Virus record (IMG/VR): IMGVR_UViG_3300049188_000028
Coordinates: 1 to 40,001 of that record
Direction: 5' to 3' (one strand)
Origin: a virus
DNA length: 40,001 nucleotides
Within the stretch, counting starts at the first letter, position 1. The number at the start of each line of letters is the position of its first letter. This document shows positions 1,208 through 6,133 of the stretch, in pieces. The notes under the pieces were generated by a model. It was not told where the DNA came from. It saw only the letters and a list, made by a program, of their open reading frames with translations, and searched no databases. The translations under genes were made by a program, and so were the position numbers.

Positions 1208-1936
1208 TTACCTCCTGTCTTTATATTCCTTGCATGTTCCTAAATCCAATACATTGCACATCTGCTTCAGCCTGCTTCTAATCCTGGTGCTGTACCGGCC
1301 CTCTATTTCATCCGGGGAAAGATTCGTTGTGAAATGCGTTACCAATCCGCTTTCCAGCAAATGATCGTACCGCTGCAGGATTACTTCGGCCATTACCTCT
1401 TTTTTGTTCCCGAAATTGTTTTTCACTTCCTCTGCCCCTAAATCGTCGAATAGGCAGGCGTTTGCCATTGGACCGTTAAACCCGTTAATAATCGGCTTCA
1501 CAAACTTTTCAATTCCTGCATCCCCTTCCTTCATGAACATTTTTGCCGGGTGTTCAGTATTGTAGGCGGTGAAGTACTTGGAATAGAAAAACCTCCGGTA
1601 ATCGTCATGGGATAGGCAGGCTTTTAGGATCCGAAACAGCATGCTTTTACCGCTCCCCGGGTTGCCGAAAATCATTATCCCTTTGCGCAGGTCCATTTCG
1701 TACCGCTCCGCTGTTTCAACGTCCCCGGTGAAGTAGGCCACGAACGCTGTAACCTGATCCCGGTTTTCATCGTCCAGGGTGAAGGCGGCTTTCATTTCCT
1801 TTTGTGCCAGCTTATTCGCCATTTTCCAGAAAGCGGCTTTCGCCAGCTCAAAGTTTTGTGGATCCGAAATCTTTAATGTTCCCTGATTGAATGGCTGTTG
1901 TTGCTCCTTTGCCAAAATTTCTTTGATTGTTTCCAT
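1208..1936 (-). CDS. DnaC/IstB-type helicase-loader ATPase
   Basis: A 242-residue AAA+ ATPase. Walker A GNPGSGKS lies at residues 91-98 and Walker B CLFDDLG at about 161-167. A sensor stretch HFTTNLSPDEI (201-211) is followed by an arginine-rich end. This matches phage DnaC-like loaders that place the replicative helicase at the origin. It follows the DUF1376-like initiator, the usual phage pairing. Its start lies 89 bases inside the initiator gene; the next internal Met (residue 39) would remove part of the N-terminal domain, so I keep the long form. Confidence 0.88.
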   Translation of the reverse strand: METIKEILAKEQQQPFNQGTLKISDPQNFELAKAAFWKMANKLAQKEMKAAFTLDDENRDQVTAFVAYFTGDVETAERYEMDLRKGIMIFGNPGSGKSMLFRILKACLSHDDYRRFFYSKYFTAYNTEHPAKMFMKEGDAGIEKFVKPIINGFNGPMANACLFDDLGAEEVKNNFGNKKEVMAEVILQRYDHLLESGLVTHFTTNLSPDEIEGRYSTRIRSRLKQMCNVLDLGTCKEYKDRR

Positions 1937-3348: not shown

Positions 3349-3565
3349 GTAGGTACAATGGATTATCATTTTCAAGGGAGCGAATAGTATTAAGGCAGTC
3401 AATGCGGTCGCCTTCGGTGTGCATTTTCTTTTTGAGCATCTCGCCGGTATTTGTTTTTAAAATGGAGTATTCAAACAGCCGGGAGACACCGGTAGAAATC
3501 GTTACTATTTTCAAGGGCTTAAAATCTGTGCGCTCCAATAGGCGCTTTATGTTATTGTTCTGCAT
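3338..3565 (-). CDS. Hypothetical early protein, 75 aa
   Basis: A 75-residue soluble protein without recognised motifs. Its start region (TAACCAATATGCAGAA) is identical to that of the next gene upstream at 3882, so both probably share a translation signal or an old duplication of the leader. The end overlaps the methyltransferase start by 11 bases. No function can be offered. Confidence 0.65.
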   Translation of the reverse strand: MQNNNIKRLLERTDFKPLKIVTISTGVSRLFEYSILKTNTGEMLKKKMHTEGDRIDCLNTIRSLENDNPLYLHVN

Positions 3566-3570
3566 ATTGG

Positions 3571-3882
3571 TTAGTCATTCATTCTGCTTAAATAGATCTT
3601 ATCACGCTCTGGTTCCTCTGAAACATGAATTATTAGAGGTCGCATATAATTTCGATCGAGAGGTTTACCATGAATACAATAAGCCTGCTCGCCCAACCTT
3701 ATTGTTTTTAGGTGCTTATAGTGTTCTGGTATTGTAGTTCCAGTATTACCGAGCCATACCTCTCCTTTAGCTAATTCGTGATGACAAGAAGTGTGCTTGT
3801 AAGCATCATTAGTATAGTTACTAAGGATATCAATCGAATCGGCGGCTGGGCTACACTCAGTTTCAAAAAGTGATTTCTGCAT
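3571..3882 (-). CDS. Hypothetical early protein, 103 aa
   Basis: A 103-residue protein with scattered His and Cys residues and no domain I recognise. It is the first gene downstream of the long structured non-coding stretch, about 50 bases after the last hairpin. The start is supported by the 16-base leader it shares with the gene at 3565. It could be an accessory partner of the methyltransferase, but only position suggests this. Confidence 0.65.
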   Translation of the reverse strand: MQKSLFETECSPAADSIDILSNYTNDAYKHTSCHHELAKGEVWLGNTGTTIPEHYKHLKTIRLGEQAYCIHGKPLDRNYMRPLIIHVSEEPERDKIYLSRMND

Positions 3883-3929
3883 ATTGGTTAAGGGTTAATA
3901 CTTTTGCCATTTACTTTCTTATTAATTGC

Positions 3930-4394
3930 TTTATCTCCCCCAAAGGGGCCGGTCTTTCCCTGGTGTCTTACGTCTTTCCGTTTGTCAGCGATACTTTCGC
4001 CTGTGTTCAACAACTTGTTAATCCCGTGCGGTCATGTCCGTATCTCTACTTTCTCATTCCATGATGTCAGGACGTTAAGCGTTGTCCCTCGCCAGTTGTA
4101 TTTAGTTCAGGCTATCCTCTCGCGTTCTTTCGCTTTAAAGGGTTGTGGCAACGCCCGATTACGAACCGCAGGTCGAATAGGAAAACAGAGTAGACCCAAA
4201 AACCTATTCACCAGCGTTGCCATTTTTAGCAGGCTATATACCGCCTGCCAGGGTCGTACGTCTTTCCGTTCTTGTCAACTGCCCATGATTCCAGCTTTTT
4301 GCTCCTTTCTCGCAATTATGCTACACGTAGCAGGGCTTAATCGAGGAGGTGTTGAGGCATTTCGCGCGATTACCCGTACGCTGCTGGTCTACGC
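3930..4394 (-). ncRNA. Candidate large structured non-coding RNA
   Basis: A 512-base gap in the leftward operon has no frame of 60 codons or more on its own strand. Read leftward, it forms perfect nested helices: GGCAACGC (4221-4214) with GCGTTGCC (4154-4147), enclosing GAATAGG (4209-4203) with CCTATTC (4181-4175). GCAGGC pairs with GCCTGC (4248-4229). A bulged hairpin spans 4345-4309 and CCCC-TTT-GGGG ends near 3938. GTAGACC at the 5' end (4392-4386) complements GGTCTAC inside a hairpin loop (4196-4190). The 14-base AACGGAAAGACGTA occurs twice, 288 bases apart. This resembles ornate phage RNAs such as ROOL or GOLLD in style and size, but I cannot assign it to a known family. It should be co-transcribed with the early genes. 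Confidence 0.62.
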
Positions 4395-4883
4395 TTACCC
4401 ATGGGCCACCGTATCGTAATATTTTCTATTTAATCTCTCTTTTCTTTCAGCCGCTTCCGGCCCTATCTTCATTGTTTCCCATTCCCCGCTTTCATCGAAC
4501 ATCCAACCGCAGTTACATTCATTGAACAGGGGGCCGCGTCCTAATACAAAGTGGTTCTCCGGGTCCAGGTATAAAGTTTCATTCGCTCCGCTTCCGATAA
4601 TGTGGCAAACCGCCCGGCCATGCTTTTTACCTAGTGGGTCTTTGATCGGATCACCGCAATTGTCGCAAAGACATTTTCCTTTATTTTTAAGGATGTTCAT
4701 CCCGATAGCTTCACGGTAGTAATCCTTGCTATCCTTTATCTTTCCTGCTTTCTTCTCGCTGATCTTTCGCAATGCTTTTGGTGGGTTAACCCTGCGGTCG
4801 CAGTCCTTCAACTTTCCACGTGCCCAGATAATGCCGGACTTTCCACATCCGCAGTTGCACGTTTTGATCTTGCGAGGGATCAC
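4395..4883 (-). CDS. NinG/HNH-like zinc nuclease
   Basis: A 162-residue Cys-rich protein. The N-terminus has CNCGCGKSG (residues 9-17). The DSKDYYREAIGMNI segment (51-64) resembles the lambda NinG recombination nuclease. The core has paired cysteines C73/C76, GRAVCHIIG with His94, N110-H111 and C123, as expected for a zinc-bound HNH-type fold. NinG resolves recombination intermediates, which fits the nearby RecT and exonuclease. It starts in an ATGA overlap with the basic protein upstream. The exact subfamily is uncertain. Confidence 0.68.
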   Translation of the reverse strand: MIPRKIKTCNCGCGKSGIIWARGKLKDCDRRVNPPKALRKISEKKAGKIKDSKDYYREAIGMNILKNKGKCLCDNCGDPIKDPLGKKHGRAVCHIIGSGANETLYLDPENHFVLGRGPLFNECNCGWMFDESGEWETMKIGPEAAERKERLNRKYYDTVAHG

Positions 4884-5065
4884 CGTTTGCTTCGCGCTTT
4901 CAGTTTAAACTGGTTCGGCTTAAACCGCTTCCGTTTCTTCCCGGGGTTTGGAGGTAGCCCCGGTTTGATATGTGGGTTAGGGTCAATGCCACGCCTTTTT
5001 GCGTTCATTTCTGTACTGGCTGCCATCATTGTGGCTAATGCCATTGCTTTATTAATTCCGTGCAT
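4880..5065 (-). CDS. Small basic protein, 61 aa
   Basis: A 61-residue protein with an alanine/methionine-rich N-terminal helix and a Lys/Arg/Pro-rich tail (from about residue 34), likely to bind nucleic acid. It overlaps the NinG-like gene by ATGA. No family is recognised. Its position inside the recombination module suggests an accessory DNA-binding role, by inference only. Confidence 0.6.
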   Translation of the reverse strand: MHGINKAMALATMMAASTEMNAKRRGIDPNPHIKPGLPPNPGKKRKRFKPNQFKLKARSKR

Positions 5066-5070
5066 AATGA

Positions 5071-5259
5071 TTATTTAAGAAGCGAGATAAGGAACACAAT
5101 CAGGATGAAAAGGAGCAGTAATGCGACACCTCCCCATAATGGAATTGTTACCCACCACCATGACCATGTAATTACACCACCGAGCTTTAAGCCGATGAAA
5201 AGGATTGCCAGCAGGCCCATAAAGCCTATCCCTGTACTGTTGTTTGATTCTTTGCTCAT
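5071..5259 (-). CDS. Small two-span membrane protein (Tmemb_185A-like)
   Basis: A 62-residue protein with two hydrophobic segments (about residues 10-30 and 36-60) separated by an SWWWV-type turn. The pattern IGFMGLLAILFIGLKLGG..WSWWWV..PLWGG resembles the short phage members of the transmembrane Fragile-X-F-associated family. These are common in early regions of phages and their function is unknown. It would sit in the inner membrane. Confidence 0.72.
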   Translation of the reverse strand: MSKESNNSTGIGFMGLLAILFIGLKLGGVITWSWWWVTIPLWGGVALLLLFILIVFLISLLK

Positions 5260-5317
5260 ACTGTTATTGTTTTATCTGCCTGTTACGGCTGGTTAAGATT
5301 TGATAAGGGAAAGTACT

Positions 5318-6133
5318 TTATGCTGCTTCGGTTGTTTGTTTAAAGAAGTTTTCATTCAGATAAGCCCGGCAATCTTCAATACGCCTGTAAAGCCTTTTTA
5401 TATCTTCATCGTTGCGCTCAACTTCAAATGCGTAGTGCCTTTCCTTTAGCGGTACTTCAACAAAACCCAGGAATATTGCCGCTGCGTTTTCATCTGCATG
5501 AATATCTATACCGCGCCTTTGGATATAAGCCTCGAATGTTGCTTTGTCATATGTGTGGTTAGCTATGATCTGTAGTTCAATCCAGGCCGGGGTATCATTA
5601 TTCAAATGGTTATAGCTCTCCTTTCTCAGTTCACCTTCTACTAAATGATATGGAGTATTGTTCAGGCAGTAATCAACGTATGCCTTTTTTGCTCCGGTTA
5701 AAGCCATGTAGCATTGCATCTGCCAGTAGTAAAGTTTATTCAGTTCTTTACGGATTGCCCGGTTGAAGGTGAATAGATCCCAGCTGCTTTTAGTGTCGCG
5801 GATCAGATCAGCCATGTAGATGCTTTCCCCTTTGAATAAATCCGGGGTGCCCTTGATGTAAGCATTGCTCAGGTGAATTTCATTCTTTACATAAAACTCC
5901 TTCGTGATCCTGGAAACAACTGTTATGCTGTCTTCCTCAACCTCGTTTCCTTTATCCAGCGCCTTTCCATTGATTTCAGTAAAACGATTGTATGCTTCAC
6001 GTACGTAAACATCAACAAGATGCGTTTTAGTTGTTTCAGATAATTCACCGGCCTCTTTTGCTGCTTTGGTTTGTGGCTCCGTCATTAAGTGCCCGGCACT
6101 TGAACTACGGAATAAAACTTGGTTCGCGTTCAT
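5318..6133 (-). CDS. YqaJ-type recombination exonuclease (PD-(D/E)XK)
   Basis: The 271-residue protein has the nuclease order of YqaJ-like/lambda-Exo-like enzymes: FRSSSAGHLM (8-17), an acidic GNEVEE (62-67), IKGTPDLF with D98, DTKSS with D113 and K115, and YYWQMQCYMALTG (135-147). It would resect double-strand DNA ends 5' to 3'. It directly follows RecT (1 base gap), forming a two-component recombination system. The length and motif set look intact. Confidence 0.88.
   Translation of the reverse strand: MNANQVLFRSSSAGHLMTEPQTKAAKEAGELSETTKTHLVDVYVREAYNRFTEINGKALDKGNEVEEDSITVVSRITKEFYVKNEIHLSNAYIKGTPDLFKGESIYMADLIRDTKSSWDLFTFNRAIRKELNKLYYWQMQCYMALTGAKKAYVDYCLNNTPYHLVEGELRKESYNHLNNDTPAWIELQIIANHTYDKATFEAYIQRRGIDIHADENAAAIFLGFVEVPLKERHYAFEVERNDEDIKRLYRRIEDCRAYLNENFFKQTTEAA

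Follow-up and report, generated by a model that had tools for sequence, protein, structure and literature searches.

Phage genomes hold many unannotated gaps of several hundred bases, and the locus studied here raises the question of what one such gap contains. In the window, by which we mean the whole stretch of 40,001 bases from an IMG/VR record that was analysed, the list of open reading frames leaves 512 bases (3883-4394) between two minus-strand frames of 103 and 162 amino acids (3571-3882 and 4395-4883, respectively). DNA methyltransferases, a DnaC-like loader, a primosomal protein and an exonuclease are encoded nearby on the same strand, and the RNA locus described below is most likely transcribed from that strand together with these neighbouring early genes. 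To judge from the relatives, the host of this environmental phage is probably a member of the Bacteroidota.

A preliminary description had read most of this gap as one structured RNA of 0.46 kb with the features of large ornate phage RNAs. It was right in kind: covariation supports a core of 116 nt and a repeated hairpin, but not one 0.46-kb molecule, and instead of a single ornate fold the locus looks modular. The covariance-model search against Rfam that had been proposed returned no match, the ROOL and GOLLD models included. At the gathering threshold Rfam matched nothing in the window, nor did ARAGORN, and Rfam also found nothing in 3800-4500 at E values up to 10. No terminator was called on the minus strand in 3500-5400. 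In folding energy the gap does not stand out (z of -0.19 on the minus strand and -0.35 on the plus strand), so single-sequence folding gives no support and the case rests on comparison. Several of the stems drawn by eye are present, among them GAATAGG/CCTATTC within the outer stem GGCAACG/CGTTGCC, as well as the hairpin at 4250-4227. The 7-base complementarity that had been taken to link the 5' end (4392-4386) to a hairpin loop (4196-4190) is real but at chance level, since by simple arithmetic about eight such 7-mer pairs are expected per 512 random bases.

Relatives of the locus and the structure of core X

Used as bait for homologous gaps, the NinG-like neighbour had no relatives, while the methyltransferase and RecT neighbours had relatives, none of them with a homologous gap. 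We also scanned viral contigs for TGACA, 0-3 bases and the 14-base element AACGGAAAGACGTA, which retrieved eight loci; a second pattern added four. This 14-mer, reported earlier as present twice, each time after TGACA, does occur twice on the minus strand, near 4270 and near 3982; the copy near 3982 follows TGACA directly, and in that near 4270 two bases, AG, intervene. The window's first copy, in the A element (Table 1), is kept over 25-51 bases in the relatives, with 86-100% identity in the first eight loci, and lies there in DNA without a conserved reading frame, often next to tRNA or tmRNA genes. L003 has it upstream of tmRNA, L005 and L093 have it before tRNA-Cys and tRNA-Tyr, respectively, and in L004 it comes after tRNA-Met. 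The element was also found in one bacterial genome, a Chitinophagaceae MAG (L096); two other bacterial matches (L094 and L095) were chance matches in coding DNA, as were L223 and L224. Variants of the stem of the hairpin after A include GGCAGGC/GCCTGCT, GACAGAC/GTCTGTC and GTGCAGAC/GTCTGCAC, and in L006 this hairpin is followed by a T run.

A longer RNA, core X, is common to the window, L092, L225 and L226. The model CM R1 was built from the latter three only, with the window left out and with four helices read by eye. Against the whole 40-kb window it gave a single match, 3983-4098 on the minus strand (E 0.006), with 17 of 17 pairs standard; because the helices had first been drawn with the window in view, this test is independent for the sequence model and not wholly so for the choice of helices. 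The same model matches L209 at E 5e-12, and a marginal match in L240 was treated as chance. In the five-sequence alignment, which was fitted to the model so that the counts lean towards it, 98.8% of the cells pair and 12 of the 17 pairs change on both sides, a result that none of 500 shuffles reached; sliding the partners destroys the signal. Covariation among homologous gaps, proposed earlier as a check, is thus present, and the window groups with L092, L225, L226 and L209 through a significant match to a window-free model and the same junction kept by compensatory changes. Judged by this covariation, core X is a real structured RNA.

The surroundings of core X recur as well. In the four loci named in Table 1 for the tRNA-like domain, a tRNA or tRNA-like piece stands 5' of the core; the domain of the window itself was not called as a tRNA or tmRNA by ARAGORN or Rfam. 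Two UGACA-type hairpins follow on the 3' side in the window (3987-3969 and 3968-3949), L092, L209 and L226, and tandem pairs like this B1-B2 pair occur in the latter three and in L096. Helix P3 of the junction, whose loop starts with GAAUG in the window and GAAAG in the homologues and whose stem is TCTTG/CAAGA in L209, is by its sequence a UGACA-type hairpin with an enlarged loop. One of the four loci, L239, comes from a Chitinophagaceae genome and resembles a prophage; at 1501-1610 (minus strand) it carries a tRNA, core X and a strong terminator-like hairpin, with no clear UGACA/GAAAGA hairpin at the end.

Table 1. Features of the RNA locus (positions in the window)
Feature	Position	Strand	Evidence
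Noncoding gap with RNA locus	3883..4394	-	ORF list; no Rfam match; plus-strand ORF judged noncoding
A element TGACAAGAACGGAAAGACGTACGACC: UGACA hairpin, GAAAGA loop, A-A mismatch in stem (GAACG/CGTAC)	4252..4277	-	Almost the same sequence in noncoding DNA of further phage contigs and of a Chitinophagaceae MAG; reading frame not kept
Hairpin directly 3' of A: TGGCAGGC-GGTATATA-GCCTGCTA	4227..4250	-	Compensated stem changes between phages, loop GGTATATA largely kept
tRNA-like domain: 7-bp acceptor-like stem GGCAACG/CGTTGCC plus ACA tail, inner 7-bp stem GAATAGG/CCTATTC	4147..4221	-	Sequence; tRNA or tRNA-like piece at the same place in L092, L225, L209, L239
Core X: three-way junction (P0, P2, P1, P3), then linker to UGACA	3983..4098	-	CM R1 match, covariation in five sequences
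P3 of junction: TGACA + TCATG ... CATGA, loop begins GAAUG	4032..4069	-	Alignment A5
B1: TGACA AACG GAAAGA CGTA	3969..3987	-	Same motif in at least 120 phage contigs
B2: AGACA CCaGG GAAAGA CCGG, second tandem hairpin, bulged A	3949..3968	-	Sequence; one-mismatch match
Short GC hairpin CCCC-TTT-GGGG after B2	3938..3948	-	Sequence

It is very improbable that the conservation is that of a protein, encoded by the 171-codon plus-strand frame at 3904-4419 that spans the gap or by small minus-strand frames. The frame is open over nearly the whole gap and the A element can be read as the peptide DKNGKTYDP; however, GC is flat over the codon positions of the long frame, which matched nothing in Pfam or PHROGs, and in the core region all four homologues have stops in every frame, antisense and sense. 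The peptide was rejected, as its frame is not conserved and stops lie close upstream in most phages. A conserved protein, which the preliminary description had set against its RNA reading, was found on neither strand, and the protein reading is excluded as far as sequence can exclude it.

A short hairpin in many phages

The AACGGAAAGACGTA repeat is part of a sharply bounded hairpin of about 21 nt, consisting of UGACA, a stem of 3-5 bp whose sequence is free and a GAAAGA hexaloop; in the relatives, TGACA is present and GGAAAGAC is flanked by pairing bases. The pattern TGACAGC-N(1-3)-GGAAAGAC-N(1-3)-GC, which does not require the N bases to pair, found at least 120 stretches in environmental phage contigs. 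All 70 non-redundant copies with a 5-bp stem, in which two bases per side are free, can pair, compared with 26.8 on average and at most 40 in 2000 shuffles. Conservation is nil upstream of the hairpin and downstream concerns mainly one A. In 395 Bacteroidota genomes the pattern occurred five times and its reversed control not at all, and a stricter search of 2.1 Mb of collected DNA, most of it fetched by this pattern, gave 134 copies vs one for the reversed control. Among the window's own hairpins A is imperfect and B2 bulged, with AGACA replacing UGACA.

The hairpin is also present in cultured phages of Gammaproteobacteria and cyanobacteria, and unannotated gaps that carry it were found in mEp390, Pokken, Alexa, Medea1, ESP2949-1, P7641, Pag-Yong1, PSKM, DIBBI and others. 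For the element itself Rfam returned nothing at gathering or loose thresholds. A text search of open-licence PMC articles for the hairpin sequences gave no phage or RNA paper among the matches listed, and in the same collection the literature on structured and phage RNAs held only ROOL/GOLLD-type or unrelated work, so a prior description elsewhere is possible. TTTT lies within 10 nt of the hairpin in 27 of 116 copies, and some copies may be plain terminators; no T run follows any of the window's hairpins A, B1 and B2, so that they lack the GC stem plus T run of an intrinsic terminator.

Gaps that contain the hairpin have a median length of 458 bases, compared with 23 when every gap of these contigs is counted, gaps being delimited by a crude ORF caller. 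In seven loci a tRNA begins 4-13 nt 3' of the hairpin, and the tRNAs in hairpin loci lie on the same strand as the hairpin in 39 cases and on the opposite strand in none. Loci with any tRNA hold only 23 of 125 hairpin matches, many copies being far from detected tRNAs. Similarity between environmental loci extends beyond the hairpin on the downstream side only in 39 pairs, some of them formed by close relatives or by repeats of a single contig, on the upstream side only in 10, and on both sides in 4. A 322-kb phage contig (L111) has at about 4125-4512 (minus strand) tandem 78-nt repeats, each with TGACA-GCTTG-GAAAGA-CAAGC, and five hairpin copies in all.

The mEp390 modules come after the repressor gene and a promoter-like TTGACA, in the place of an early left leader. 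The 691 bases after the repressor gene match, segment by segment, 87 phage records and 1928 of the 5426 complete E. coli genomes; some of the E. coli matches overlap tRNA-Arg, which by itself may account for them. Query bases 210-212 and 422, the ends of UGACA hairpins (L227 1809 and 2021), are where many of the segments stop, and others end elsewhere (221, 324 and 503). The hypothetical protein mEp390_036 (L227 1729-1971; JQ182729.1 27501-27743) overlies a conserved RNA module with a UGACA hairpin and is probably a false gene. In SPN1S a lone RNA unit with the hairpin lies between opposite-strand genes, and is therefore not merely the leader of a gene.

Possible roles of the hairpin

Comparison establishes the covariation-based structure, the spread and the association with tRNAs and module boundaries. 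We see about an even chance that the window RNA is a structured, modular noncoding locus of an undescribed phage RNA family, in which the 21-nt hairpins act as punctuation and serve in 3'-end or processing recognition. The modules would be the three-way-junction core X, tRNA or tRNA-like pieces and other RNA units, with hairpins ending or joining them. Since UGACA and the loop are fixed and the stem is free to vary, recognition of the hairpin by some partner is most likely; a host factor is the more likely recogniser because the hosts span phyla, and processing or 3'-end definition is the likeliest role because the hairpin stands at module ends and just before tRNAs. The hairpin may thus be recognised by a widely conserved factor, probably of the host, that binds or cleaves RNA. 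Such a factor would define the 3' ends of the RNA modules or shield them, and would detach the modules from the following tRNA or mRNA, which would allow stable noncoding RNAs and tRNAs to accumulate during infection. Binding of the released core X to a host RNA or to the ribosome is conjecture. More tentatively, the UGACA plus GAAAGA-loop signal, read by a putative factor common to many phyla, could organise mosaic cassettes of noncoding RNAs and tRNAs that phages, among them a considerable fraction of E. coli prophages, exchange as they do genes.

A similarity boundary at the hairpin can also come from homologous recombination at a conserved repeat, with no need for a processing role. It would be rather improbable, in our view, for the hairpin to owe its conservation to use as a joint at which phages swap RNA and gene modules: most similarities do start or stop there, but compensatory stem changes with a fixed loop and UGACA need selection on RNA or single strands, and the stem sequence, which homologous recombination would use, is free. 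An antitermination element, similar to nut boxB or put and acting in cis for read-through of long untranslated RNA and tRNA stretches, appears unlikely. Such a role would suit the early-left-leader position in mEp390, and boxB is likewise a short hairpin with a purine-rich loop. However, read-through would be useless for units between opposite-strand genes (SPN1S) or before a convergent gene (Alexa; five loci); up to five copies stand in tandem in L111, and the hosts span phyla, whereas nut needs a phage N protein. HK022 put, a leader RNA of about 70 nt, is known to bind RNA polymerase, its two stem-loops contacting the beta' zinc-binding domain (PMC9378689). The likeness to put, namely a place in the lambdoid early leader, is confined to mEp390 relatives, whereas the hairpin is also found in RNA units that stand alone and upstream of tRNAs, and the phages that carry it belong to several phyla.

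ROOL and GOLLD are phage-encoded structured RNAs often set near tRNA islands, and GOLLD sometimes has a tRNA inside the RNA (PMC12286853). We think it improbable that the locus is a large ornate RNA-only assembly of this type, in which the UGACA/GAAAGA hairpins would dock within a single big fold. In its favour are the phage origin, the tRNA islands, the large gaps, the presence of several junctions and the recurrence of loop motifs, and the setting is shared with GOLLD and ROOL (PMC12286853), but their models found no match, the modules occur singly and are swapped, and the hairpin also stands nearly alone between genes, for example in L090. Like ROOL, the family is one of phage-encoded structured noncoding RNAs often found near tRNA islands; unlike ROOL, the locus is an array punctuated by a 21-nt hairpin and not one large fold, and the window and tested homologues lie below the Rfam gathering threshold. 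GOLLD shares with it the place near tRNAs, found for several relatives, whereas the window itself has no recognised tRNA; the Rfam model of GOLLD, which covers its conserved 3' region, gave no match, and the 116-nt core has its own junction and conserved sequences. As for tRNAs and tmRNA, the window has acceptor-like pairing and in relatives they adjoin the element, but the window RNA went undetected by ARAGORN and Rfam. Hammerhead and other small ribozymes were rejected: their cores do not appear to fit, and Rfam finds none.

The presence of the hairpin in many unrelated phages may point to a common, overlooked phage RNA system. If one small hairpin does mark a share of the gaps across unrelated phages, these gaps would become a readable system: modules could be catalogued together with their predicted ends, and E. 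coli with mEp390 or related lambdoid prophages would be the place to look for the partner that recognises the hairpin. This would also set ROOL and GOLLD in a wider context, in which noncoding RNAs are exchanged at phage tRNA islands.

The loop context GGAAAGAC (3969-3987 in the window, and relatives) may resemble the 23S rRNA sequence around A2058, possibly by chance. The loop variants GAAGTAGA, GAGAGA and GAAGAGA stand beside standard hairpin copies in the same gap (L232, L233 and L227), and two UGACA-hairpin phage contigs contain matches to the DUF2815 RNA family (RF03084), at 8873-8932 in L157 and 4901-4960 in L153.
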